Part shown: one piece after another, positions 128 to 55,084 of the stretch | Position numbering within the stretch: position 1 is the stretch's first letter | Layout: every line of letters begins with the position of its first letter | Origin: Ptychodera flava | Lineage: Eukaryota; Hemichordata; Enteropneusta; Ptychoderidae | Assembly (NCBI RefSeq): GCF_041260155.1 | Contig: NC_091944.1 | Coordinates: 27,699,832 to 27,763,831, forward strand | DNA: 64,000 nucleotides | Direction of reading: 5' to 3' | Made by a program: the position numbers and the translations under genes | Notes under the pieces: generated by a model | Told to the model about the DNA's origin: nothing | What the model saw: only the letters and a program-made list of their open reading frames with translations | Database searches by the model: none

Positions 128-3100
128 CAATTCAATTCAATTCAATTACTTTATTATCCACAATAAATGTAGAAAGTTGCCTTCAGGCACATCATATACA
201 AATTAAAATAGTACAACTAGCAAAAGCATTCTATAAAAAGGGACGCTATTACACATTGAAATGCTTAAAAACACACAAGGTAGCGACATAGATACAAAAA
301 TTGAAACATAGATTGAAGCAGCAAAGGACCAACTGGAGGTTTAAAACAACTACATCGAGTTTGAGTTTAAAATTGAAACTGCTGATGGAAGAAATTACTT
401 TTTGAAGAGGTTTTTCTTTGCACGAGGAACCCGAAAACGTCTCCCTGGCGGGAGTTTCTGGAAGTAACCATGGAGAGGGTGATCAGAATCATTGACAATA
501 TTCTGCGCTTTCCTTTTCACTGCCAGCTGGTAAAGGTTTACAAGGGAATTTTGACGACAGCCAATAATTTTTCTGCCATCCTCACAATACGAGAAAGCTT
601 ACTTCTGTTTCTGACAGTCAAATTTCCATACCACAAAATGATATTATAGGTTAAAACACTCTCAATGAGGGATCTGTACACTATTTGTAAAATATTTTGA
701 CTCACATTGAACGATTTGAGTTTCCTGAGGTTGAGAAGGTATAATCTTTGTTGGGACTTTTTCGCTATATAGTCAGTATTTTCATCAAATGTGAGTTTTT
801 CATCTAGAAATGAACCTAAGTATTTGAAACATGAAACGACTTCAACAGATTCATCGTTGATTGTGACAGGAGTAAAATCCGGGCAAACTTTACAACCAAT
901 GACAAGCTCTTTTGTTTTACTAATATTCATATCTAAATAGCTATCTATGCACCAGTTCTCTAAAATTTCAACATTATGGAAATATTCAGAAAGAGAATCT
1001 TCCTTTTTGAGTAGCCCAACAAGAGCCATGTCATCAGCAAATTTGAACAAACAAGATATTGCAGTATTGCACTTATGTGATCTGTGTAAATAGAAAATAG
1101 AGTAGGTGATAACACGCAACCTTGTGGTGCACCAACATTCAGTACAATTTCCTCTGACATGTAGCCATTTACACATACCCGTTGTGGTTTTTCTCTAAGA
1201 AAATCACTGATCCAGAGAATTATGTTGGCATCGACATTCATATTGATAAGACGTCTAAGGAGAACATATGGTTCAATGGTGTTGAAAGCGCTTGAAAAGT
1301 CTATAAAAAGAATACGAATGTATGCATTTGCGGATTCTAAATGTTGAGAAAGTAAATTAAAAAGAGTGATAGATGCGTCTTCAACCCCTCTATACGCAAA
1401 CTGAAACGGATCTAACTTATCAGCCACATTACAAAGCAAATGCTTCCGCACAATACTTTCCATAAACTTGCTCAGAATTGATGTTAAGGCAATGGGACGA
1501 TAGTCATTCAGCTGCTTTGGGTTGGGCTTCTTTGGAACTGGAATAATTGTAGATGTCTTCCATGTACCGTGACGGGGGACAACATGAAGATTTAATAACA
1601 TCTGGAAAATGTAGGAAAAAATGGGACCGAGTTGTCAAGCACAATTTTTCAAAACCCTTCCTGTAATTTTATCGGGAGCTGCTGCTTTGTTACTGTTTAA
1701 TTTTAAAAAGCTACCTTCAACATCGCTTTGGGAGACCTCAATCTGATCAGAGACAGGCTTCAAACTCTGACACAATGTTACACATTCATTGGTGAAATCT
1801 CTTACATCAAAACGAGCATAAAATTTGTTTAATTCATCGGGGAAGGCAAGTAGATCACGAGGGAATGAATTTAGGCTAGTGTTTTGTTTTTTACCCATCA
1901 TAACTTTCAACCCATCCCATGCAGCTTTACAATTATTTGTTTTCAATTTTTCTTCAACTTTCATTCTGTACTTATATTTCGCAATTCTAGCCTGCTGTCT
2001 AAATTCCTTTTCTTTTTCCTTATATTTACTTCTGTCCCCTTGTAGGAATGCTAATTTCTTTTCATTTAGAAACATTTTCATTTCTTTTGTTACCCAAGGC
2101 TTGTTATTCGGGAAAACACGTACTGATTTGGTTTTTACCACAATGTTTTCGCAAAACTTCATATAACAGGAAACAGTATCAACCAATTCTTGGGGTTCAA
2201 CGCAAGATGTTTTAAAAATGTCCCAGTCTGTTATCTCAAAGCAGTTTTGAAGATCGCCAATGCTTTCCGGAGACCAAACCTGTATGGTTTTGACTTGTGG
2301 TTTTTCAGTTTTCAGCTTTTGACGATATTTCGGGAGCAGATGTACCACATTATGATCTGAACGCCCGAGAGCTGGTCTGCCAATGGAGCGATATGCATCG
2401 GGAATATTTCGATAACACATGTCGATAGTTCTGCCAAGACGTGTGGGAACTGTAACATACTGATACAAATTAGGGAGATGAGAAGTCATGTCACATCGAT
2501 TGAAATCACCTACTATGAAGACAGGATTGTCAGGGGATCGCGTGATTACTTCGCTATAGACTTCGGAAATCTTCTCTCCAGCTATCTTGAAGTTGGGTCC
2601 TGGTACATAAACCATGATAACAGTTAGTTTACTGAACTCCCGGGGCAAGTAAAAGGGTCGAAATGACACCGACAACAGCTCGTAGTCGTGGGTGCACACT
2701 TGTTCGTGAATATTGAACTGGGTAGCCCACCTGTTGCTAACAAAAGCACACAATCCTCCACCGCACCGCTTTTTTGCTTTGTTTGGGTTTCTGTCTGCAC
2801 GAACAAGGGAATAGCCGGGCAAAGAAATATTGTCAGCTTCCTCTGTGAGCCACGTTTCTGAAAAACACAGTAGATTATTACGACGAAAATCCCCGTCGAA
2901 TCTTACAAGGGCCGTTAGCTCATCCATCTTATTTTGAAGTGATCTTACATTGGAAAACGTGATGGTTGGAAGTGGATATCTGCTACCACGTTTTCGGAGT
3001 CTTGCTCTGATCCCTCCTCTTGATCCTCTCTTCTTCCTACTTTTCTTATTTTGACATGATATATCGCCATTGTTTTGGACTGGTGCTGAAGATGGGTTGA

Positions 3101-3401
3101 AGTCAATATTCAAATTAGTGTCTGGTATGGTGTTTTGGAATGTGAGTAGAAATTCACGACTATACCTGAGAACAATGGCAGCGTTGGTAAGTTCGGGTTC
3201 CGTGACATAAAAAGTCGTCAAAACGCAGTCAAGCAGAGGACAAATCACAACGATGAATAAGATGCACTTTCCTGCCATACTTAAAATCGTCCAGGTAAAG
3301 TGACAGGAACAAACACGACCTCGAACACCAAAAGAATACAACAAAAACCGGAGACGAACTGATGAGCCGGGGTCAGCCACTGCACAGCGCCCCCTTATTA
3401 A
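128..3401 (-). mobile_element. CR1/L2-group non-LTR retrotransposon (LINE), nearly full length
   Basis: The element runs on the minus strand. Its 3' end is a short (AATTG)-type tail, read on the plus strand as repeated TTCAA at 128-145, as in many CR1/L2-like LINEs that end in a short repeat instead of poly(A). It encodes an apurinic-type endonuclease followed by a reverse transcriptase. GTGTT at 123-127 and again at 3402-3406 is a likely target-site duplication. The element splits a minisatellite that continues on both sides, so the borders are clear. At about 3.3 kb it may lack part of the 5' region. Clade assignment rests on motif style only. Confidence 0.9.
538..3380 (-). pseudogene. LINE endonuclease-reverse transcriptase ORF, broken by two frameshifts
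   Basis: The first open segment (3380 down to 1635, 581 codons) carries the endonuclease: FSNVRSLQNKMDEL, the metal-site glutamate in CFSETWL, GDFN, and the catalytic GRSDHNVV. It runs to the linker before the reverse transcriptase. The frame changes near 1610-1640. The polymerase continues at 1601-960 with DYRPIALTS, the catalytic IDFSSAFN and APQGCVLSP. The frame changes again near 1050-1080, and FADDMAL (second catalytic aspartate pair) plus the thumb region follow down to 538. All core motifs are intact, so the copy is fairly young, but it cannot make one continuous protein. The N-terminal ~130 residues match nothing I recognise. Confidence 0.88.
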
Positions 3402-3745
3402 GTGTTATTTGGTGGCACTTGGGGAGTATCTTTGCGGGGGGGGGGGAGGTAAGGACGGGGGTGTCCCCCTCCTGCCATTGGAGCTTTTGAAAAATAGAGA
3501 TTAAAATGGTGTTATTTGGTGGCACTTGGGGAGTATTTTTGCGGGGGGAATTCAGGAGGTGGGTGTCCCCCCTCCTGCCGTTGGAGCTTTATAAAAAAAT
3601 TGAGATTAAAATGGTGTTATTTGGTGGCACTTGGGGAGCATTTTTGCGGGGGGAGGTGAGGAGGGGGTGTCCCCCTCCTGCCGTTGGAGTTTTAAAAAAA
3701 TTGAGATTAAAATGGTGTTATTTGGTGGCACTTGGGGAGCATTTT
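3402..3745. repeat. minisatellite, 101-105-base units (right part)
   Basis: About three and a half tandem copies continue the array seen at 1-127. Successive TTAAAATGGTG starts fall near 3501, 3606 and 3707, so the period is 101-105 bases. Short open frames across it are by-products of the repeat. Confidence 0.85.
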
Positions 3746-5226: not shown

Positions 5227-8200
5227 ATGTAAAGGATATCGCGTAAATACTGATAATTAGCGAAATCCCACAGGCAAATATGGCGACTGCAAAAGTTACA
5301 GACGGACCAAGACATCGTATGTGGCCTGCAGCGCCGAAACACGGTCGTGCAATCAGCTGCACCAATCCCATGACGGCTGGTATGTACGAGCCAAAATTGT
5401 ATGATATACCAAAGTCACGAGCACGTCTTACCTAGAGGAAAGCACATCATAAGAAGTAATGTTACAACATAACTGATTTTCGATATTAGGTAGATTTCAT
5501 ACTGCAAATATGAATCCTTGTTTGTGAAGGAATTAAAAACGCAAGTTAATACCGTTAAGGAAATATTTCGCAGGATTATACGCAGATTCGTTTGTCTGCT
5601 TAATACTTACAAGATGAATTGAAGCTGAATTGATTCCAAACACTTGTCCAACGCCAATAATACAAATTGTTATGAAAACGGGTTCTTGAAACAAAGTGAC
5701 GTCATATATGGATAAAAAATACGATTTACAACGCCGAGCAAATGTTTTTTTCGGTTTGCGATCGACAGTCTTGTCCTTCACTGTTATCATGTCATACGAT
5801 TCTGCAGATTCTTCAGCCTTTGAGTGGTTTTCTTCACTGCTGTAAATTTTCTTATTGCATTCATCGTCCTTCTGTGACCTTTGTAAATCCTTGTCAGGTG
5901 ATCTGTGCTTTGTAGGTAGCTGTCTCGCTCTTAGAGGTCGCATGAGGGCTCCTGCCACGCATAGGTGTAAAGTGAACGCTGACATAAATAGAAGCATTCC
6001 CCTCCAGCCATATTGATCCACCATCATTTGAGTGACGAGTGATAAGACAAACTGACCTGCACCGGCTCCCGCCGAGGCCAGTCCAATAGCAATGGGAAAT
6101 CGCTTCTTGAAATATATGCTGACGATTTCAATACAGGTCACATAAACGACACCCATCCCGGCTCCTAGAGTTTATAAAAAAAACCTGTAGACAGTCAATG
6201 ATTAATAGCAAGTAGAAATCTTGACACGGATTGGACACCATAGATATTCCAAGGGACCGTCTCAGATTGTTGCATAAGTTCCAGAAACGAAATTCCTTCG
6301 TTTAGATCAAAACCCCCTCTCACTCCCCGTGAACAAAAGTTAGTGCGAAATGTTGATGTCTACTTGAGAGTACAGAGTACAATGTAGCATTTTACCATAG
6401 CTACTGAAGAATATGTATCTCTTGACCACACTACATCGCCAAGTAATATAATCGACCTTAGCATGACACGAACGAGTCGGAAAGAGTTACTGCAAACTTT
6501 GTTGCAAGTGTGCAGTTTTTGTTTATTTTTACACACAATGTAAAGAGAGCTCGTGATCACAACATTACAGTGCGAAAGTGAAGTTCACTAGTTGACATCA
6601 GGTGCAACGAGCAGTGTCAGCGTCCAACTCTCGCTGAATCGGGCAACACCCTCTGCACACACTGTTTATCACAGTTGCAGTCATCCCACTTCTGGAATAT
6701 TTCAAAACCGCGCATTTGACCCAAATTATCCATCAAAAAAAGCAAATGTGACCTTTCTGTGCCACCTTAGAAGGTTGTGACGGTTGACGCATACGGTACA
6801 GGTTGAGGCAAATCTATTGTTAGTATACAAAAAAAGCCAGGACTATTGTTCATATTCATCTACGAAAAAGATGTTACTTTTTCACTTGCTTTGAGCTCTT
6901 GACCCGTTTTCTGTGCCTAAAGTAGGTAGTTTTTAACAAGTATAAAGTGAATAAAACGCTGAACGTAAGGTGTATGGTATCAGTAGATACTGTATGCGTG
7001 TGTTGCAACGCATTCCAACTTATAGAAATGTTCGGTCTCGGGTGCTGAATTTCCGACGCTCGATCTCTAAGACGTCAGTTTTCTGCATTAAAGTGACCAA
7101 AGTGCCCAAATAAGACAACAAAGACACCAAAGTTGATATAATATAATAGCAATAACCCCCGCCGCCGGCATGATTACACTCGATTTTGGTACAATGCGCT
7201 CCACTATAGCACTAACTCGCCTATCGGCTCGTGCTATCTGTCCCGCATTGTACCAATATGTCGTGTATACCTGCCTGCGGCGGGGGTTATTCCTTAAATT
7301 GATTTCACTATATTCAAGCAACGCGAGGTAAACAAGAGCATAGCTATTTGAGCTAAAACTAAACGTGCCCTTTTAAAAATATGAATTAATGTTACCTGTT
7401 AAGACTCCGTATGTGAAGAACAACTGGTACACATGTGTTGTGAATCCACTCGTAAGAATCCCCAGTGATGCTAAAACGCCAGCAGCCATAACAGCTTTTC
7501 TGTGTCCAAATCTTTTTGAAAAGGCTACTCCGTAACTTGCGGAAAACGTAAAGGCGACATCAAATATTCCTGAAATCCATGCTGCAAATAGTTAAGACGT
7601 ATTGAATAATGGCGAGTGTTGAATAGAAATCTAAAAGTAAAATATTATAGTCTTCATGACAATACTCAGGTTTACAAGATTTTTTCATGCCGATTTTTAT
7701 TATGCATTTATAATACCGACCTACCTACCTACATACATACATAGACACCCACCTACCTACCTACCTACCTACCTGCATACATACATACATACAATACCTA
7801 CCTACGTTACATACCTACCTACCTACATACATACATACATATACACCTACCTACCTAACTGCCTACCTATCTACCTACCTATCAACATTTATTGCCAGAT
7901 CATCGACTTCTGCTAATATAATCAAGCAATTTAATCGTTGTCTATCAGAACAGCTACTCATTATTAATACTGATCAATTTGCGTTGTTAAAGAAACGCTC
8001 TCAGCTGGCTTCAAAATTTTGCCACCAAAACAAATATTATTTTATCGAAATTCACCACTACCAAAACACATTATAATGCCATACTCTCTGATTGTATATA
8101 GGATGCATTACGCGTAAAAGAAAGTAACAGATAGAATTACTCTGTACCTGAAGAAATTCGCGTTATTCACATATTTTAAGAAGGGTTTGCGATATTAGAT

Positions 8201-8383
8201 GAATCGGTTTTTTGGCAGCTTACCTGTAACAGCCTTTGATTCTTTAAATGCGTCCAGAAACGCAACATAGATCACCGAGAAGGAATTCAACAATCCTGCA
8301 CTGATGAAAAATCCCAGGAAAGATGCAAAGACTATCACCCAACCCCATCCACCGTCTGGATGATCTCCAATTGCCGCTTCCAT
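5227..8383 (-). CDS. SLC16/MCT-like major facilitator transporter, gene A (exons 1-4 visible)
   Basis: Diverged member of the array. Exons by GT-AG junctions: 8224-8383 (start ATG at 8383), 7396-7581, 5611-6164, 5227-5431. Phases match genes B-D exactly and the 1105 coding bases stay open. Exon 1 has the SLC16 signature HPDGGWGW at the start of helix 1. Exon 2 encodes helices 2-3. Exon 3 has YFKKRFPIAIGLASAGAG (helix 4-5 region) and a charged cytoplasmic loop. Exon 4 covers helices 8-9 with ARP. Family members are 12-helix plasma-membrane carriers of monocarboxylates, aromatic amino acids, thyroid hormone or creatine; the substrate here is unknown. Exons 5-6 are not found down to position 1, so they are outside the window or lost. 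Confidence 0.88.
7691..8165. repeat. microsatellite-bearing dispersed repeat in intron 1 of gene A
   Basis: Contains an interrupted (ACCT)n/(ACAT)n tract at about 7720-7880. A flank follows with GCCACCAAAACAAATATTAT and, further on, ATTACTCTGTACCTGAAG, which recur in diverged form near 16315-16480 and 32765-32945. It is therefore an old copy of the sequence that opens tandem units B and C. The reading frame through the tract is a simple-repeat artefact. Confidence 0.6.

Positions 8384-13030: not shown

Positions 13031-13110
<80 letters not shown>
13031..13110. repeat. (CT)40 microsatellite
   Basis: Uninterrupted CT dinucleotide run of 80 bases. Confidence 0.97.
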
Positions 13111-13114
<4 letters not shown>

Positions 13115-15372
13115 GCATATTCAAGTAACTTCAGTACAGCATGTAAAATTAGTTACTTATTCCTGATTAGTAGTCATGTACATGACTGTACACATATTTT
13201 GATCTCGTTAAAGACAGTCGTTTGTACTTTGAACCTTGAATTGTCACGCTACATATACAAAGTAACATAGCTTTACAGGAAAACAAGATCTAGGGTCAAA
13301 CAGAACTTGTTTACACGCTACTAGTTATGCATGTTTTGCAAGTGACTTTAAAAGACGAGGTATACAGTCACCTGTAATATAAATATGCCCATATATGGTC
13401 AAAGGGGCGTTCCTTGTTATTCAAAATGCCCATGTGAGGGCGCTGTTTTTAAAAAGCGGCCACCCGCTTAAAATCTGTGATTGGCTAGATTTTCTCTTTC
13501 CATGGTAACTGTGGCAAAATTGGAACAGGTGACAGTATACCTTTAAAAGACGAGTTATGATGTGAACAGCTGGGAGAGCTACAAAATATTCATAAAAACA
13601 CATACCTGAAATTCTTCTACAATTAAATTGCTTTATCTCATGCAAAACCGATGAAACCGAATGTAACTTTTTCTTAAATTATTTGCACAGGCAGTTAACG
13701 CATGCAATTGGTGTACATTGCTTCTTAGACTACCTAAACTAAAAATGGAAAGTACTATGAGTTTATGTCATAATCGAATTCCCTTGACACTTTTAATTTA
13801 AGTCAATCTGCTCATTAATAAACACACACGTTTGTTAGTAATGGATAGTTCATCATGGATCAACAAATTTTACATCATTTCCACCGAAACTTTAAATAGG
13901 TGAATAAGCTTGGTAAATGGTTCAAATCAAAATAAAATACGAACTATTCATGAAGCTAAGTCCACGTTTCATGCAAGTGCGAGATAATTTTCACCATTCA
14001 CCGGTAGACATCTACGGAGATAGTTGTCATCATGCCAAATGACAACATGTCAACTACAAAGATCATAGGACAACATTATTCGTGCAGAATATGGTTAATG
14101 AAACTATTTTCACTACAAGTAGGGTACTTGGAGGACAATATTTTCAATACAGAATGCATGTGCGTATCTATCATCCTATCAACAGTGTATGAACTGATTC
14201 ATATTTAAATTCAAACAAACGTGCACAATGAAGAATCACTTTGATGGGTGACTTGTGCGCAATTGTCGCCATCTCAGAAGTACCAGTATCAACAAGTGTG
14301 TTAGCGAATAATGTTATTTCACGGGAATTTGTCAACGGGAGAAATTTACAGTCCTGTTCGGCACTTGTAAATACTTTAAATAACAATTTCGTCGGGAAGA
14401 CTAACGAACACTCTATACCGCCAGACGAAGAAAAAATTGCAATTGTAAAATGCAGAGCTACCATGAAACTCCAAGCACAGAATACCAAGGTGAGGATATA
14501 CAAACTTGCGTCAATGCGAGCTCAGTATAAATATATAAACATATATCAGTCGCGTACGATCGGTGACAGTAAATATCGCGTAACACTTCATTACATATAA
14601 ATGTCAACAAACAAGTATAATTTACTAGTATGGCCGATCGATTCCTTTTAAAATTTTGTTTATTCTACTACGTAATTGAATTTGGAATTCGCTTCGCTCG
14701 ATGATTATTTCCCGCCAAAAATGCTAATTTTCACCCCAGAGGTCTTATATTCGCAACCAAATACCCTCGCTTGCCGTTTATAACCTCTAATTATTAACTC
14801 ACGCTCGCGTCTCACAATATCATCAGCTGTGCTAGCATCCATGGCTTACATATTTTTGGCACAATTCAGGGGCATCGAACATCCATTTCAAACATGTCCT
14901 TATTAATAAAATACATGGGAATTGTCCCGGGATCAAGGCTGTGGCTTGGAAGAAATTCAGGATATGCCAACAATAGCGTTGATCGCGATTTCAGATTTGT
15001 TACTATAAGCTCAGCTGTACGCGAGCGACATCGCTGCCTGAAATTCGACCAAAGTTTGTTGTTGCAATGTAAGTCTGAGCCATAAATTATTGTGGCTTTT
15101 ACTTTTGTTGTTCTATCGGAAAATGCGGACAATCTGACGTATAAGCTTAGGCCCTACATTTATTTTTGCATGTTAATGAAAAGAAAAATGACATCATTTG
15201 CGATCAACGCTATTTCAATATTGTCAATTAATTCCACCTTCGATTTATTGTTTTGATATCTATGTACCCACATACTTGAAGCAAGTCCATGTCTTCTGTC
15301 CAATTGAAAACTTCACAAAATTGTATCGTACTACAAAATTAAAGCTAATCAATCTGTCGCACTGAATGCATG
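13111..15372. other. non-coding spacer, no firm gene
   Basis: Apparently single-copy in this window. The only segment with some coding character is 14241-14489, listed separately. Otherwise AT-rich with scattered short open frames on both strands and no recognisable domain. Confidence 0.4.
14244..14489 (+). CDS. possible first exon of an unrecognised plus-strand gene
   Basis: From ATG at 14244 (a second ATG lies three bases upstream at 14241) the frame reads MGDLCAIVAISEVP and on through PPDEEKIAIVKCRATMKL. It ends at AAG followed by GTGAGG, a good splice donor near 14489-14494. The frame stays open past the donor to about 14600, so the exon end is inferred. The composition is protein-like (charged, few simple runs), but no family is recognised and no downstream exon was found. 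The opposite strand is also open over 14171-14503, so chance is a serious alternative. Confidence 0.22.
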
Positions 15373-15852
15373 CATGGATGCGCACCGTCCATGGCTGCTA
15401 TCAATGTAGTGACGTGATCTACAATTCTGGTTTAGATATTAACCAGTGACTGTCATGACAATGGCTTGAAAACAGGCCGATTAATTCCAAGTGCTTGAAT
15501 GGTTTAAACTTAAACCATGTTCACAAAGTTGCCACTTGTGGTTGGCTTAAAGATGAGCCAATGACTTTGTCGGTATGTAAACAAACCAACGATGCCAGTG
15601 GCTCAAATTTAAACCAATAAAATTATATTGTGACGGGCTTAAAAAGAAGCCATTCGGCTTAAACTTTGCCATGACGGGCTTGATAATAAGCCACCTATGT
15701 ATTCGTAGAATACATGCCATTCATACTCTTTGTGGTGGTTTAACTTCAAACCAAAATATCTTAGTGGATTTCGGGCAAACCGAAATATTTCAAACATATA
15801 CACACTGGTTCACCCGCAAGCCACATACAAACTAAGTGGTTATATTTCACGC
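15373..15852. other. run of short hyphenated palindromes (dyad array)
   Basis: Successive imperfect or perfect inverted repeats of 15-21 bases lie about every 20-45 bases: 15373-15393 (CATGGA arms), 15405-15423 (TGTAG), 15427-15446 (CTGGTTTAGATATTAACCAG), 15462-15478, 15499-15518 (ATGGTTTAA arms), 15522-15540 (CACAA), 15542-15561 (TTGGCT), 15599-15616, 15636-15651 (GGCTT), 15677-15692 (GGCTT), 15697-15715 (ATGTATTC, eight-base arms), 15736-15753 (TGGTTT), 15768-15786 (ATTTCGG, seven-base arms), 15806-15823. Many share a TGGYTTAA-type core; others do not. Nothing like it occurs at the matching place before unit C. Function unknown; see findings. Confidence 0.7.
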
Positions 15853-15874
15853 CAGAAGAATTTGCAGTGTAACT

Positions 15875-15996
15875 ACATACATACATACATACATACATAC
15901 ATACATACATACATACATACATACATACATACATACATACATACATACATACATACATACATACATACATTCAGACAGACAGACAGACAGACAGAG

Positions 15997-16031
<35 letters not shown>
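15875..16031. repeat. compound microsatellite (ATAC)n then (CAGA)n
   Basis: About 24 ATAC units up to 15970, followed by CAGA units with a GGAGAG interruption. Open frames in all phases here are simple-repeat artefacts. A shorter version (ATAC, then CAGACAT) lies at about 32470-32505. Confidence 0.95.
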
Positions 16032-16032
<1 letters not shown>

Positions 16033-16549
16033 TACAGACACCACAGACTCACCATATAAGCTCCTTATGGTATTTATAGACATACCAAATGTGAGTTAAA
16101 ATGAAAAACGCTGTAAACTGTATAGCTTTTTTCATTTTCACGAAATGTCTAACACTTGGCCCTTGCTCGCTCATTTCGTGGTCAATCATTGACAAAGCAT
16201 CGAGCTACTCTAGCATAAGCAAGCGATGTAATCTCTGTATATCAGAAAAGCTGCACATTATCAATGCTGACAAATCCACACTGTTACACACAAATGCTCT
16301 GAGTAGGTTTCAAAATGTCGCCACCAAAACAAATATTATTTATCAAATGTTAACACCACCTACAAATACAATGGTTCGTCCCCATCATATATATAAGAGT
16401 GTCAAGCTGGTAACCCTTTCACTTCCATCTGCAGAAACTTAAGTAATAGATTTCATTACTCAGTCTGTACTTGAAGTAATTTGTATATTTATAACGCTCT
16501 GCTTAGCATCGAGCACTGTAATGTCCCACGAGAACATCTGTATACTTCG

Positions 16550-16555
<6 letters not shown>

Positions 16556-16586
<31 letters not shown>
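16556..16586. repeat. (TG)n microsatellite
   Basis: Alternating TG run of about 31 bases. The homologous place in unit C (33017-33042) has a shorter, interrupted version. Confidence 0.9.
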
Positions 16587-16589
<3 letters not shown>

Positions 16590-16978
16590 TATACTTACAC
16601 TAGGAAGACAGTGTACGTTGGGAGAGAGTAATCGGGTGACACGATCCGGTACAGTTATTGGGTCAAATACATGTAATGATATTATGTCCTGCTCTCTGTC
16701 TTTCTCATGAAATCTAGTACATTACGGTTGAAACCATAAAACCACAACAACACAACTAAATATAGACATAAACAACAATACAAACAATAACAACAGCAAC
16801 CAGATCTCTGGGCCCCCTGTTTTGAACCTTGAACACTTCGGTGTCATCGCTCGATTTGCGCCTGCTCAAGCTATTGCGTATCAACGAGGAAACAAGTCAC
16901 AGTATCCGGTGTTCTTTGCAAAAATACAGCACAAACCCTAATTAACTTGTCATGAGGACAGACCGATCTCTAGTTTAA

Positions 16979-17513
16979 TTTATAACACACCACATGCTCA
17001 TTCCGTGTCGCGATTCGCCAGAATACGTCCCGTGACGAGAAAATAGATACGTCTAGTCCCCACCGATCTGAAAAGTGACGTCATAGGGTATTTTTTGAAA
17101 AAACTATTTCCCTAGTAAATAGCCCTGACCAAATTTAGAAAAGCGCCCGGTTACGTGACCGTCACGGGCGGAGTGTCGTCTGCAGCTTTGCAACAATGGC
17201 GGGTGACGTACGTGCTATGCGTCCGGGATAGGTGACGACAAATTCTCTAAAACAGATTTTCCAACATTTTCCAACATTCAAACAGCGTAGGAACTTGAAC
17301 AGCTCATCGACGGAAAAGATTAAAGTGCAACTAAGGATGTCGCTAGGTATGGTTAGAATATTTTTTGATAGAAAGTGGTACCACGTACAACTGAAACCGC
17401 TGTACTTCACTCAGTAAACTTGTCACAATGGATTGTCGCGGTGCAAAATATCAAAACACATTAAAAACTGTATAATAATACAACATGAGCATGTGGGCAT
17501 GGTGTGTTATAAA
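16979..17513. mobile_element. MITE with TTTATAACACACC termini, unit B only
   Basis: TTTATAACACACCACATGCT at the left end is matched by its inverse near 17485-17513. The matching places in unit C (about 33425) and unit D (about 47440) run straight from CTCTAGTTT into ATATGCTAGGGC, so the sequence was inserted in B after duplication. No transposase. It directly adjoins the palindrome at 17518. Confidence 0.65.
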
Positions 17514-18887: not shown

Positions 18888-19888
18888 AGACGTGACACTT
18901 GACGGTTTCTTGACGTTTCGGCACCAAGTCGTTTCGGCCCAAGACGTTTCGGCCTCCCAATTTCAGGCCCCAAGTCGTTTTGGTACCGCGACCAAAGACG
19001 TTTCGGCACCGCTCAAGGCTACCGCGCGTAATGTTACAAATCAAATTACTAAAAAGTATAGTGTTCACTATTAAACATTAACGTATATGCTTTAATCTTT
19101 GTGAGAACACGGTCAGAGACCGTAAGAAAAAATACCGCCAAGGACAGTGTGCTCACATTCAGTTTGAATTGGTCCATTCGAGAAATATTTAAACCAGGAA
19201 AAACAAGAATGACAAAAGCAAATAAGGTCTACAACTTTTTTACAAAAAATTCAGCAAAAATACATAATTGAGGATATCTTCACAATATTCATAAAACTGT
19301 ATAAGTTCACCTAAGGTACTTGCACACAAATTTTCAAATCAATCAAAACAGCAGTTCTCGAGATATTAATTCTGGACCATTTTCACAAGTTGTAAACTCA
19401 TTTGCATAATTTTGGCAATGCAGACTTCATTTGAACAAAATCCCATCTATATACCAAGCTGAAATGTGCGGCGGTTTGCGTGTTTTTTATGTTGACGGAC
19501 ATACTCTACGTACGTACATACATACAAAAACACATACATACACACATACATACAGACGCCATTGACTTCAGCTTATACGATAAACTCACATTGGTATAAC
19601 TAAATGTGAGCTAAAAAATTTCATATCATTTTCGAATCTGTGACATAAGTTTATCGATAGCAATAGCCGCCCACACTGCAAAAGTTTGATAGCGGTGCCG
19701 AAATAGCACGGCAAAAGTCAAACAAAATGCTCATAAAAGTACTAGTCAGAACGCTAAGGTCACGCGTACGAATATGACGGGTCAGTCAATAACTAAATAG
19801 TTTGAAAAAAATTGATACAGGCATGCCTAAACGTCTTGGGATGAAAAGACTTATTGCCGAAACGACCAGTTACCACACTTGACCCAGT
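18888..19888. repeat. fold-back region with degenerate GCCGAAACGTC repeats
   Basis: At 18905-19012 a ~20-base phrase (ACGTTTCGGCACCAAGTCGT and variants) recurs about five times. Its inverse (GCCGAAACGACC) appears at 19830-19875, followed by TTACCACACTTGACC, which mirrors ACACTTGACGGTTTC at the left. It could be one decayed fold-back element. Parallel parts occur in C (36110-36560) and D (49170-49290, 53035-53130), where other elements interrupt it. Confidence 0.5.
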
Positions 19889-20700: not shown

Positions 20701-21060
20701 TATATTTATATATGTGCATGTGTTTTGCACTTTTGTTTGTTCATTTTTTTGTATGTTTTGTGTGTGTGTTTGTATATATAATGTATGTGCGTAAGTGTTA
20801 GAGACAGCAGCATATCCAGAAAAGATTGATATGATTGACTGAACAGCTAGCTCATGCAACATATTCAACATGTATGTTTGTTATTTATTCAACGTTCTAT
20901 GATATTGTATGTTTGTCTATTTATTTATGTGTCTGTGTGTTTATGATTTATTTATGTATTTGAATGCTTGTTTGTATGCTTGTTGTATATTTGTTTATTT
21001 TTTTATTTGCTTGTTTGTCCTGGCTCCCCTGTGAGCCAATCCCTCGAAAGAAATGACAGA
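20405..21060. repeat. fold-back of (AAAC/AAAT)-rich sequence
   Basis: Left arm rich in CAAACAAA/AATAAATA, right arm its inverse, including ATATCATAGAACGTTGAATA on the left and its complement on the right, around an (AT)n core near 20640-20710. Equivalent structures lie at 37110-37710 and 56610-57240. The long low-complexity open frames here are not genes. Confidence 0.6.
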
Positions 21061-32380: not shown

Positions 32381-34001
32381 ATCTCAACCCCTGGGTCTAC
32401 CTGTACACGAAATACTAAGATGATAGGTGCGGCGGTTTGGGAGCTTTTGCATCGGACGGACGTACATCCGCACATACATATATACATACAGACATACAGA
32501 CGCCACCGACTCACCATATAAGCTTTTTATGGTATTTATAGATATACAAATGTGAGCTAAAATGAAAAACGCTGTATACTGTATAGCGTTTTCATTTTCA
32601 CGAAATGTCAAAGACTTGGCCCTTGCTCGCTCATTTCGCGGTCAATCATTGACAAAGCATCGAGCTACTCTAGCATAAGCAAGCGATGTAATCTTTGCAC
32701 AGAAAAGCTGCACATTATCAATGCTGACAAATCCACACTGTTAAATAACGCTCTGAGTTAGTTTCAAAATGTCGCCACCAAAACAAATATTATTTATCAA
32801 ATTTTAACACCACCTATAAATATAATGGTTCGTCCCAATCATATATGTAAGAGTGTCAAGCTAGTAACCCTTTCACTTCTATCTGAGGATTGCAGGATGC
32901 AGGAAACTTAAGTAATAGATTTCATTACTCTGTACTTGAAGTAATTTGTTTACTTATAACGCTCTGCTTAGCATCGAGCACTGTAATTTCCCACGAGGAC
33001 ATCTGTATACTTCGATGTGTGTGTGTTTGTGTGTGTGTGTATGTCCTATACTTACACTAGGAAGACAGTATACTTTGGAAGAGAGTAATCGGGTCACACG
33101 ATCCGGTACAGTTATTGGGTCAAATACATGTAATGATATTATGTCCCGCTCTCTGTGTTTCTCATGACATCTAGTACATTACTGTTGAAACTATAAAACC
33201 ACAACAACACAACTAATATAGACATAAACAACAATACAAACAATAACAACAACTACCAGATCTCTGGCCCCCCTGTTTTGAATCTTAAAAACTTCGGCGT
33301 CATCGCTCGATTTGCGCCTGCTCAAGCTACTTCGTATCAATGAGAAACAAGTTACAGTATCCGATGTTCTTTGCAAAAATACAGCACAAACTATAATTAA
33401 CTTGTCAGGAGAACATACCGATCTCTAGTTTAAAATATGCTAGGGCAAACATGGTGAGTTTGTTAGTAACGTTCGTTCTTTAAGCATAATAAAATTAATT
33501 TTTGGTCAATGACCGCTCACATCACGTGTGTATACACGTGTGCGTACATATGTTATGGCCATGTACGTAGACTTCTCAACAGACGGTGACAGCGCCCATT
33601 GGTTTTCTTCCTCAACCATTGCAATGGCGATCCAGTTTCAGTGTGCTAATACTAAAGAATTTGCACACTGAAAGGTTTCCACAAATGAGAACGAAAAATA
33701 GCTTCATCTAGCCCTATTGTAAAACAGATATATTTTCCTTTATAAACTAAATTGTCACTATGTCAGCAGGTACGGCAATTCTAATTGCCCTATTCATCAC
33801 AATAAAAGAAATCACCACGATTTGGTGGTTTGATAGTGAAGGGGCCGACAATAATACGTCTATTGCTCGACGCAACATATTTTTTAAAAAAGGAGGTAAC
33901 ATATATATAGAAGCACAGTCACTCAGGACTGTAACCGTGATCGTGGTGAGGGGCCGTCGAGAATTAAAACACGCGCAAGGCAAACGTAACTTCCTCGTTT
34001 A

Positions 34002-38739: not shown

Positions 38740-39721
38740 CATGGATGTATGAATAATTTGGTTTCAATACAAAAATAGGTAAATCTTTGCATTTATGTAC
38801 TCTTGATTATTCATATCAATGTACCAATCTGATTAAAATCAGATGTAGAGTACGGCGACGTCTTCTTATGCGTACGCGGTATTCTCTCGCTGTCGACTCT
38901 CACTAGTAGTGGTCGACTCTCACTAGTAGTGAGAGGCGACAGCGAGAGAATACCGCGTACGCATTAAGAGGACGTCGCCGTATTCCACATTTGATTTTAA
39001 TCAGATTGATCAATGTACTTGATTAGACTGGGTTGGCTGTAAATGGACATGTGTGTAATAAAACGGATATTGGAAATTTACCTTAATGTGGATTCGCTAT
39101 ACGTGGTATCTTATGAGGGAACTATAAACATTTTTTTCATATACAACAATAGGTAAATCTGTGTATTTATTTACTCTTGATTATTGATATTAATGTACTT
39201 GATTATACTAGGGTTGTTACAAATGCATGTGTGAGCAAGAAATTGGATTTATGAATTTCATCGAAATGATGATTCACTATACATGGTAGTGTATGAGAGA
39301 ACTATGAACATTTTTTTTTTCGAATATAAAACATATAACAACATCTGTGCATTTATAGACATTTGATAATTTATATACACTTTGTCACCTGTCCAATACG
39401 TTTTTGACTCTTGTCTTTCATGAGTTTTAACTGTTCAAGATGTTTAATGTGGCAAACTGCTTCATCTCCTTTGCTTGCGAAGCTTGTCGATAATGTGTGC
39501 GTATTCAATTTGAAAGAACCAATGTATTTCGTCGGCAATTTCCTATTCAGGAAACAACACATGAACAATCAAAGGTTTGGCCTTAAAATCATTTTTTGTT
39601 AAAAGTGACCCTCCCCAAGATAGATTTATAAAAAGTGACCCTCCCCCTTGGACAGTTTTCTAAAGGGTTACCCTCCCCCGATCCCCTGGCCCATCCGCTG
39701 TAATTACTGAATTCTCCCTTA
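38740..39721. repeat. satellite-monomer tract, unit C copy
   Basis: Counterpart of 22080-23050, including the CCCTCCCC phrases and the TGAATTCTCCCTTAA end. A minus-strand frame (39371-39568) matches one in unit B (22699-22896) with two or three residue changes, which reflects DNA duplication only. Confidence 0.55.
38825..39008. mobile_element. palindromic MITE, Mutator-like, unit C copy
   Basis: Same insertion as 22173-22335, with an extra ~20 bases at the hairpin tip where GTCGACTCTCACTAGTAGTG is partly duplicated. Confidence 0.72.
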
Positions 39722-48990: not shown

Positions 48991-49345
48991 ATATTCATAG
49001 CCACGTAATTACCGATTGTAGGTATGATACTGAATGAGGTATGGTTAGATTTTCGCACTTCCAAACTTTCGTTTAGGAAGGGTCGGAGGGGGTTCAGGCC
49101 AAAAGCACTTAGTTTCGTTTTCCGTGCGAAGCTTTAATTATCCACAGTCCCTAACGGTGACGATGCCAATCGATAGACGTGACACTTGACGGTTTCTGGA
49201 CGTTTCGGCACCAAGTCATTTCGGCCTCCCAATTTCCGACCCCAAGTTGTTTTGGCACCGCGACCAAGAAGTTTCAGCACCGCTCAAGGCTAGGCTACCT
49301 GTAGGTACTAGTGCTTGACCGTAATGTTATAAATCAAATTACTAA

Positions 49346-50857
49346 CCAGATATGAACTGTAAATGCTCACGTGTTTCATTATATATTGCAGTTATGTATA
49401 AATTTGAACATTTGCCACATGTTTGCAACTTCATTGAAAGTATTATGATCAACATAATAAACAATATTCACCACAGATTAACTCTATAGGTCATTAAGTA
49501 TTAAAATATGTAATTAACTGAAATAAAAATAATTAATTTCTTTGACTGCTATAATTGTCTGTGGTCAAGTCCTTCAAACTATATATTCAAAACTTTGAAA
49601 GCTCATTAGATATGCAAACTATTAATTAGCTGACATGAAAACTTAAGTGCGAAATGACTTCCAATATTGGTATAACCTGGTATAATCATCAATGTCATAG
49701 CATGTTATGCCAACTTTGATCAAATAAATCCAAGAATATATCCCTAATTAGGAACGTCAATTAAATACACACATTAGGAATTGGCTGAAGCAAAAATGCT
49801 TAATGCCTTTCAATAATGTTAGCTTACATAATAGTATCTTTAATGTACATAGCAAGTTTCATCAATTTTGGTCATTTAAATTCAAATATATATCCCTAAT
49901 TTCAAAAATTCATTAAATATGCAAATTAGGAGCTGGATGAAGTAAAAATGCTTAATGACTTTCAATAATGTCGTATCGTAGCATCTTTAATGTACATAGC
50001 AAGTTTTGTCGACTTTTGTTCAGTCAATACAGATAAATATCCCTGATTATGAAAGTTTATTAAATATGCAAATAAGGAATTGGCTAAAGTTCAAATGCTT
50101 AATGATTTTCAATAATGTTCTATCATAGTATCTTTAATGTACATAGCCAGTTTCATCAACTTTGGTCTCGTTAATTCAAATAAATACCCCTAATTAGGAA
50201 AGTTCATAAAATATGCAAATTAGGAAGTGGCTGATGTAAAAATGCTGAATGACATTTAATAATGTTCTATCATAGTATCTTTAATGTACATGGCAAGTTT
50301 CATCAATTTTGGTCATGTAACTTCAAATAGATATCCTTAATTTCAAAAATTCATTAAATATGCAAATTAGGATTTGCATGAAGTAAAAATGCTTAATGAC
50401 TTTCAATAAGGTTAAATCATAGTATCTTCAATATGCATACCAAGTTTCGTCAATTTTGATCGAGTAAATTTAGATATATACTCTTAATTAGGAAATTTCA
50501 TTAAACATGCAAATTAGTAATTATCTTTCACGTCACCCCTTAATATCTTTCAAAGCTGATATATCTTGGTGTGATCAACATTTGCAGCGAATCTCATCAA
50601 ATTATGTGCTGTCGTTGTCAATATATATCAGTTTTTTCTAAAATCATTAATTATGCAAATGAGCAAAAAGTAAGCAAGCCACACCCACCAAAAACTAATC
50701 AGTTCTTGCCATTTGCAAACTGAATCTATGTGCCAGATTTTATTCTGATCTGATGAGCCGTTTTTGAGATATTGAGTACACAGACAGACAGACGGACAGA
50801 CACACAGACAGACACACATCGCTGCGACATATGTCCACGTGTGTCAACACGTGAGCA
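49346..50857. mobile_element. satellite-cored element with TGCTCACGTGTT/AACACGTGAGCA ends, first copy
   Basis: Begins CCAGATATGAACTGTAAATG and ends CAACACGTGAGCA, with the CACGTG palindrome near both ends. The core is a run of ~147-base monomers (starts near 49841, 49988, 50135, 50282, 50429) with TAATGTACATAGCAAGTTT and AATATGCAAATTAGGA, followed by a CAGACAGACAG tract. Unit B at about 19041-19062 has the empty site ATTACTAAAAAGTATAG, so the insertion falls between A bases with little or no duplication. Sub-terminal inverted ends, a satellite and a T/A-run target recall Helentron-associated elements. No replicase is present. Confidence 0.65.
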
Positions 50858-50881
50858 AAAAAGTATAGATACTGCTATTAA

Positions 50882-53517: not shown

Positions 53518-55084
53518 TGCTCACGTGTTGACACACGTGAGCATATGTCGCAGCGATGTTTGTCTGTCTGTGTATCTGTCTGTCTGTCTGTCCGTCTGTC
53601 TGTCTGTCTGTCTGTCTGTCTGTGTACTCAATATCTCAAAAACGGCTCATCAGATCAGAATCAAATCTGGTACATAGATTCAGTTTGCAAATGGCAAGAA
53701 CTGATTAGTTTTTGGTGGGTGTGGCTTGCTTACTTTTTGCTCATTTGCATAATTAATGATTTTAGAAAAAACTGATATATATTGACAAAGACTGCACACA
53801 CTTTGATGAGATTCGCTACAAATGTTAATCACACCAAGATATATCAGCTTTGAAAGATATTAAGGGGTGACATGAAAGATAATTACTAATTTGCATGTTT
53901 AATGAAATTTCCTAATCAGGAGTATATATCTGAATTTACCTGATTAAAATTGACGAAACTTGGTATCCATATTAAAGATACTATGATTTAACCTAATTGA
54001 AAGTCATTAAGCATTTTTACTTCATCCAAATCCTAATTTGCATATTTAATGACCTTTTGAAATTAAGGATGTATATTTAAAGGTACATGATCAAAATTGA
54101 TGAAACTTGCTATGTACATTAAAGATACTGTGATAGAACATTATTAAATGTCATTAAGCATTTTTACATCAGCCAATTCCTAATTTGCATATTTTATGAA
54201 CTTTCCTAATTAGGGGTATTTGTCTGAATTGACGAGACCAAAGTTGATGAAACTGGCTATGTACATTAAAGATACTATGATAGAACATTATTGAAAGTCA
54301 TTAAGCATTTGAACTTTAGCCAATTCCTTATTTGCATATTTAATGAACTTTCATAATCAGGGATATTTATCTGTATTGACTAGACCAAAGTTGACGAAAC
54401 TTGCTATGTACATTAAAGGTACTATGATACGACATTATTGAAAGTCATTCAGCATTTTTACTTCATTCAGCTCCAAATTTGCATATTTATTGAATTTTTG
54501 ACATTTGGGATATATATTTGAATTTACATGACCAAAATTGATGAAACTTGCTATGTACATTAAAGATACTATTATGTAGGCTAACATTATTGAAAGGCAT
54601 TAGGCATTTTTGCTTCAGCCGATTCCTAATTTGTGTACTTAATGAACTTTCCTTATTAGGGATATATTCTTGGATTTATTTGATCAAAGTTGGTATAACA
54701 TGCTATGTACATTGATGATTATACCAGGTTATACCAATGTAGGAAGTCATTTCGCACTTAAGTTTTTCAGCTAATTTATAGTTTGCATATCTAATGAGCT
54801 TTCAAAGTTTTGAATATATAGTTTGAAAGACTTGACCAAAGGCAATTAGACTTGCTATATAAAGTGGTGATACAATGACAGCCGTCAAAGAAATTAATTA
54901 TTTTTATTTCAGCTAATTACATATTTGAATACTTATTGACGTATAGAGTTAATTTGTGGTGAATATTGTTCATTATGTTGATCATGATACTTTCAATGAA
55001 GTTGCAAACATGTCTCAAAGGTTAAAATTTACACATAACTGCAATATATAATGAAACACGTGAGCATTTACAGTTCATATCTGG
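53518..55084. mobile_element. satellite-cored element with TGCTCACGTGTT/AACACGTGAGCA ends, second copy, inverted
   Basis: Reverse-oriented relative of 49346-50857: TGCTCACGTGTTGACACACG at the left, a CTGTCTGT tract, ~147-base monomers, then CATTTACAGTTCATATCTGG. The empty site is GATCAAATGATTTTCTCGCT in unit B (about 20255-20275). With the first copy it makes a 1.5-kb inverted repeat around 2.7 kb. Confidence 0.65.

Follow-up and report, generated by a model that had tools for sequence, protein, structure and literature searches.

In the genome of Ptychodera flava, a dense array of short palindromes is mostly made of one motif, at a frequency far from chance: twelve variants of a single 18-bp dyad lie within about 430 bases (15428-15854 of the 64,000-nucleotide stretch analysed here, hereafter the window), and the DNA that separates them is largely unrelated. 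The geometry of the sites is fixed, GG-N12-CC, and their consensus is TGGYTTR-N4-YAARCCA over 18 bp, with Y/R at the fourth pair and a centre that is only loosely kept. We tentatively read the array as a cluster of about twelve candidate sites for one dimeric, sequence-specific DNA-binding protein, a proposal to which we would give somewhat less than an even chance. Each site would consist of two facing TGGYTTR half-sites, with their centres approximately one helical turn apart, and the putative protein would bind it as a symmetric dimer. Such a protein could be either a host regulator of transcription at nearby genes or a transposase belonging to an element that has since decayed, so that an effect on transcription or on transposition may be envisaged, and the clustering of the sites would raise its local occupancy.

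A family of variants of one dyad

A scan for GG-N12-CC returns the twelve sites, of which the third, fourth, ninth and tenth were also recorded in the dyad count. They begin with TGGTTTAGATATTAACCA (15428..15445) and TGGCTTGAAAACAGGCCG (15462..15479), followed by TGGTTTAAACTTAAACCA (15500..15517), whose perfect arms reach 9 bases if one flanking base per side is included, and by TGGCTTAAAGATGAGCCA (15543..15560). The fifth, CGGTATGTAAACAAACCA (15571..15588), is weaker according to the weight matrix built from the sites, and precedes TGGCTCAAATTTAAACCA (15599..15616), GGGCTTAAAAAGAAGCCA (15635..15652), GGGCTTGATAATAAGCCA (15676..15693) and TGGTTTAACTTCAAACCA (15736..15753). The tenth, TGGATTTCGGGCAAACCG (15765..15782), has the lowest matrix score and overlaps a dyad with 7-bp arms at 15768-15786, and the series is completed by TGGTTCACCCGCAAGCCA (15806..15823) and TGGTTATATTTCACGCCA (15837..15854), the latter, also scored with the matrix, with none of the three pairs inside GG/CC being Watson-Crick. 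By eye, a possible degenerate site that is one base short, CGGCTTAAACTTTGCCA (15655..15671), can be seen between the seventh and the eighth, and it is kept outside the twelve.

Any two sites share between 8 and 15 of their 18 bases, and their centres are 28-60 bp apart (37 on average), which leaves spacers of 10-42 bases. In the 12-site weight matrix, the seven outer positions of one side have base preferences that mirror those of the other side, while 25 of the 28 flanking columns hold less than 0.6 bit and the maximum among them is 0.81 bit. The low identity between sites and the variable spacers speak against a CRISPR, and ARAGORN reports no tRNA gene in the window, so that the initial annotation was right to set aside both a CRISPR and a tRNA cluster. 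It was also accurate as to the arms that it named, since ATGGTTTAA (15499-15518), ATGTATTC (15697-15715), ATTTCGG (15768-15786) and TTGGCT (15542-15561) are all present. The description of these arms as largely unrelated does not hold, because the twelve sites share one geometry, ATGGTTTAA and TTGGCT each belong to one of them, and a further site is overlapped by ATTTCGG; the accompanying statement that the array is not one repeated motif is, for the same reason, mostly wrong.

Departure from chance

From the rest of the window, 0.67 GG-N12-CC sites would be expected in the array, against the 12 that are found. When gaps from 4 to 23 were scanned in 15373-15870, the gap of 12 alone stood out, other gaps giving 0-2 sites, and across 16 dinucleotides and 20 gaps the best pair statistic of the array was 9.8, while 1000 dinucleotide shuffles did not exceed 5.35. 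In a ranking of 1059 windows by this statistic, the only ones placed above the array belong to (AT)n arrays near 46.3-46.9 kb. The longer word TGG-N12-CCA occurs 7 times within one 500-base stretch (0.11 expected), which places it among the strongest trinucleotide pairs; those with higher counts are A/T-only words and the GGG words of a G-rich repeat at 3.2-3.7 kb. On the + strand, GGYT-N4..14-ARCC has 23 matches in the window, 9 of them in the array, where 8 of the 9 are 16 bases long and the ninth is a longer reading of an overlapping site. The stricter form GGNTTN6AANCC finds only 5 sites, which indicates that the inner letters are loosely kept; all 5 are within the array, with 0.90 expected per window, and 2 of 100 shuffles reach that number. 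As for the weight matrix, the same twelve sites rank at the top of the + strand of the 64 kb with at least 13.7 bits, a result that is partly circular since they are the training sites, and the next-best match reaches 12.0 bits at 21021. No second cluster of such sites appeared in the 64-kb window in either the weight-matrix scan or the trinucleotide-pair scan.

The density of dyads, claimed initially from the letters alone, is likewise real. Defining a dyad by perfect arms of 5 or more bases and loops of 2-12, the stretch 15373-15852 contains 13 non-overlapping dyads, compared with 4.6 +/- 1.7 in 300 dinucleotide shuffles (largest 10), the control that the initial annotation itself had proposed. 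With arms of at least 6 there are 7 (1.5 in shuffles, largest 5), so that the excess over the shuffles holds for both thresholds, and with arms of at least 7 there are 3 against 0.42, a count that shuffles also attain (largest 3). Among 643 control windows, which overlap one another and were taken from the same 64 kb with starts at least 600 bases from the array, none has 13 dyads with arms of at least 5 (mean 5.0, largest 11) and none has 7 with arms of at least 6 (mean 1.6, largest 6).

Dyads outside the motif

Once the twelve sites are masked, 4 dyads with arms of at least 5 remain where the mean is 1.2, a number reached by 2.8% of the 643 windows masked identically. These are CATGGA/TCCATG (15373..15393), TGTAG/CTACA (15405..15423), CACAA/TTGTG (15522..15540) and ATGTATTC/GAATACAT (15697..15715), all of doubtful membership in the array. 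Lowering the arms to at least 4 gives 8 dyads against 3.7 (0.6% of the 643 windows), and raising them to at least 6 gives 2 against 0.34 (4.4%). Letter shuffles of the spacers agree (p 0.008 for arms of at least 5, p 0.005 for arms of at least 4, and p 0.02 for arms of at least 6), with the count being flattered by the left edge at 15373, which was drawn at a non-motif dyad. The excess is thus mild, that is, weak but not nothing, and it is the main support for the part of the initial claim that referred to unrelated arms, a part that survives in this reduced form, most dyads being the motif. The four dyads are left over by the dimer-site reading as a mild excess. Might dense short dyads be kept for their symmetry, the motif family together with unrelated arms of similar span, by some process or protein that reads the shape of short DNA or RNA hairpins in a eukaryotic nuclear genome? 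We regard this as distinctly improbable.

Hairpins or duplex binding sites

Because the sites were picked by GG and CC alone, their inner pairs can be used to test symmetry fairly. In the array, 24 of 36 cells are paired at the three positions within GG/CC, whereas the 86 GG-N12-CC sites elsewhere average 0.94 of 3, and sliding the partner columns by 1-3 lowers the percentage paired from 81 to at most 49. Dyad symmetry is therefore present, but no clear sign of coupling was seen between the two half-sites: after shuffling the right-hand columns among sites, as many inner pairs are obtained in 29% of 5000 trials (mean 22.4; p 0.29).

This distinction bears on the possibility that selection, or a mutational process, acts on the hairpins themselves, either as RNA stem-loops or as DNA cruciforms, as the initial annotation had suggested from compensating arms. 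The drop in pairing on sliding the columns is in line with it, as are the dyads remaining after masking, the covariation score of the 12-site alignment, which just 38 of 500 shuffles reach, and the RNA folds of 15420-15860, which surpass in stability all 100 shuffles made for each strand (z -5.2 and -6.4). Low fold energy is, nevertheless, expected of any set of palindromes, and the minimum-energy folds show, by eye, much long-range pairing. Against hairpins stand also the inner-pair shuffle, the percentage paired, reached by 87 of the 500 shuffles, and the cells changed on both sides, equalled by 117 of them. Changes on both sides occur at one pair as T-A/C-G and at a second as A-T/G-C, a pattern that degenerate Y/R positions of a protein site produce as well. 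Wobble-type mismatches are distributed 7 versus 6 between the strands, favouring neither RNA strand; RNA selection would tolerate G-U on one strand and not the mirror C-A, so this balance fits a duplex site, although with 12 sites the inner-pair, covariation and wobble tests all have little power. In the window, no sequence matches Rfam 15 at the gathering score. The compensating-arms argument is weakly supported, and we consider an origin in the hairpins themselves unlikely. Symmetry at a gap of 12 with no clear coupling, together with the balanced wobble, favours a duplex site that would be bound by a symmetric dimer.

Spacers and flanks of the sites

A motif repeated so many times could also be what is left of an old minisatellite, built from a single palindromic unit and with spacers now decayed. 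The single motif and its mean step of 37 bp agree with such an origin, and the left flanks are slightly more alike than shuffled ones (p 0.04), as is the mean similarity in spacer alignments (p 0.044), a weak trace that could be due to an old duplication. On the other hand, the five best spacer alignments do not surpass those of shuffles (p 0.82), right flanks do not differ from shuffles (p 0.30), adjacent sites resemble each other no more than distant ones do (p 0.57), the spacing varies from 28 to 60 bp and Tandem Repeats Finder lists no array in the interval 13110-15874, so that homologous head-to-tail units, the mark of a minisatellite, were not found by that program, by the best spacer alignments or by the comparison of neighbours. 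A neutral repeat is, in addition, unlikely to retain 18 bp while losing the remainder. We judge a minisatellite origin quite improbable: with irregular spacing and unlike spacers, the array is not an ordinary tandem repeat. The initial annotation had named a diverged tandem repeat of one palindromic unit as the outcome that would count against it; the single unit is indeed there, but its spacers lack clear homology and neighbours are no likelier to resemble each other.

What is found, in turn, is a repeated motif of fixed internal geometry, clustered, with spacers that have no clear homology and show weak likeness at most, which is the composition of a cluster of dimer sites. The varied spacing and the absence of extra likeness between neighbours fit sites that would have been kept independently. 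A phase of the spacing at 10.5 bp is not clear (R 0.25), and R 0.52 is obtained at 10.25 bp, the best of five periods tried.

Genomic surroundings

The window is eukaryotic and the array is intergenic. A tblastn exon map shows minus-strand exons of MFS transporter-like genes, which we take to be monocarboxylate-transporter-like, and 2 of the 5 ORFs submitted to Pfam (from 8 ORFs of at least 150 aa) match MFS_1. The array is located between the transporter gene with exons at 5.5-8.3 kb and the next one, at 26.8-31.6 kb. There are many satellites and microsatellites in the window, as well as a retrotransposon, whose reverse-transcriptase frame occupies 960-1634 and which at 1635-3404 has an endonuclease match that barely exceeds the cut-off. 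Among the repeats, a 147-bp tandem satellite forms two blocks (49738-50600 and 53881-54713), around which 49345-50862 and 55085-53513 match inverted at 91%, and a long, nearly perfect palindromic element recognised by eye at 32228-32383 matches 38825-39008 in both orientations at 73%.

To the right, the last site ends 20 bases ahead of a (TACA)n microsatellite that passes into a CAGA-rich stretch (15874..15993) and separates the array from a segmental duplication. The first copy of this duplication begins at 16010 and pairs with 32472 (90% over 984 columns), with further parts at about 47.2 kb. The array does end, as first described, near a microsatellite and the start of a duplicated unit. 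The region 16010-62987 appears as a tandem duplication of the transporter-like gene, each unit measuring very roughly 14-19 kb, and its junctions fall close to microsatellites, of the (TACA)n type at 15.9 kb and at about 32.47 kb and of the (AT)n type at 46.5-47.2 kb. The window contains the array once only, even though the adjacent transporter unit recurs. Paralogous arrays within the remaining duplicated units were discarded, as the BLAST matches that 14901-17100 has with the rest of the window all start at 15866 or beyond; the sole exception among the BLAST matches of this segment is 15542-15617, which matches its own reverse complement.

A family of TACA/CAGA-type microsatellite repeats is present at 7714-8062, 15874-16360, 19499-19577 and 32474-32814, its right-side sequence being similar in several copies and its left flank common to two. 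The array does not belong to this repeat, since no such array lies to the left of its copies near 7.7, 19.4 and 32.4 kb. Those near 19.4 and 32.4 kb share the left flank GTGCGGCGGTTTG, which is absent at 15.85 kb, and the copy near 7.7 kb has an exon on its left, so that most simply the microsatellite would be a duplication breakpoint and its contact with the array accidental.

The surroundings are relevant for the special case in which the array would be the sub-terminal part of a decayed DNA transposon and the dyads candidate transposase sites, an unlikely origin in our view and one already included in the chance that we give to the dimer-site reading. The repeat-rich context and the several nearby copies of the microsatellite-bearing repeat are compatible with it, and so is a possible short DNA transposon at 14972-15214, about 160 bases left of 15373, with perfect 15-bp inverted arms AATAGCGTTGATCGC (14972-14986) and GCGATCAACGCTATT (15200-15214) that are 213 bases apart and have near each outer end a TA that might be a target duplication. 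It predicts, however, many dispersed copies, and a second cluster of sites is absent from the 64 kb; none of the 8 ORFs of at least 150 aa is found between 9150 and 26808; and the best inverted match in a gapless comparison of 14.89-15.48 kb with 15.82-17.2 kb is 15 of 18, between a low-complexity stretch and the microsatellite junction. A microsatellite-like stretch at 15353-15380 was rejected as a terminal repeat, since it agrees with the reversed junction in 22 of 28 positions and six other + strand stretches reach 20-23.

Comparison with known systems

The arrays most similar in layout are the homotypic clusters of transcription-factor sites in animal enhancers, which share with the present one a single short motif in many copies, irregular spacing, an intergenic position and an extension of some 400 bp. 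Twelve 18-bp dyads seem dense for such a cluster. As for known factors, NFI recognises GG-N7-CC, of which the array holds 1 (0.79 expected), and HNF1 and Gal4 sites have a gap of 11, represented by 2 GG-N11-CC sites (0.67 expected), so neither spacing is enriched. The motif was matched to no known factor, and we know of none that binds TGGYTTR-N4-YAARCCA.

The hr regions of baculoviruses are clusters of imperfect palindromes, bound by IE-1 and proposed as enhancers and origins (PMC6669502), and their palindromes are 28-30 bp long and located in a viral genome; the dyads of the array are 18 bp long and stand beside cellular transporter-like exons and a retrotransposon, and given these differences in dyad length and genomic setting the array is not identified with an hr. 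Helentron-associated elements (DINE-1/HINE) contain palindromes and, in some copies, microsatellites (PMC4067079); they carry inverted repeats in subterminal position and one palindrome close to the 3' end, unlike the twelve dyads in a row seen here. In the gapless comparison described above, no convincing HINE-like subterminal inverted pair was found around the array, whose ends a single copy does not define. At the level of the titles and abstract openings listed, a search by topic rather than by motif retrieved no description of such an array.

Pair-of-sites scans returned 34 and 36 viral stretches (64 distinct loci) and at least 117 prokaryote stretches. With the weight matrix on the + strand, 3 loci among the 181 matches listed have at least 4 sites in 480 bases (L052, L019 and L020). 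The first, on a viral contig (IMGVR_UViG_3300022204_000006), resembles the array in having six dyads of the TGGTTTAA...TTAAACC type in a row, and differs from it in an exact 22-bp period and shared spacers; since it was found by searching for the pattern, its likeness in letters is no evidence of kinship, and it reads as a 22-bp tandem palindrome block. Its six palindromes, of the TGGTTTAATTTTAAACC type and spaced at 22 bp, occupy 8170-8300 of that contig, shortly before what by eye is a terminator-like hairpin. L019 has a visible 45-base period, L020 has irregular sites and by eye resembles coding DNA, and L015, with three sites, is by eye repetitive and coding-looking. In the parts inspected, these four loci do not have the look of relatives of the array; the other 177 of the 181 listed loci were judged by site count alone. 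The silence of the viral and prokaryotic collections says little about eukaryotes.

Significance of the array

If the non-motif dyads belong to the array too, what is recognised would be the shape of a dyad, which would be unusual. And if the sites are bound, the array would offer a sharp 18-bp recognition sequence, which could be used as bait for a factor or a transposase of this organism.
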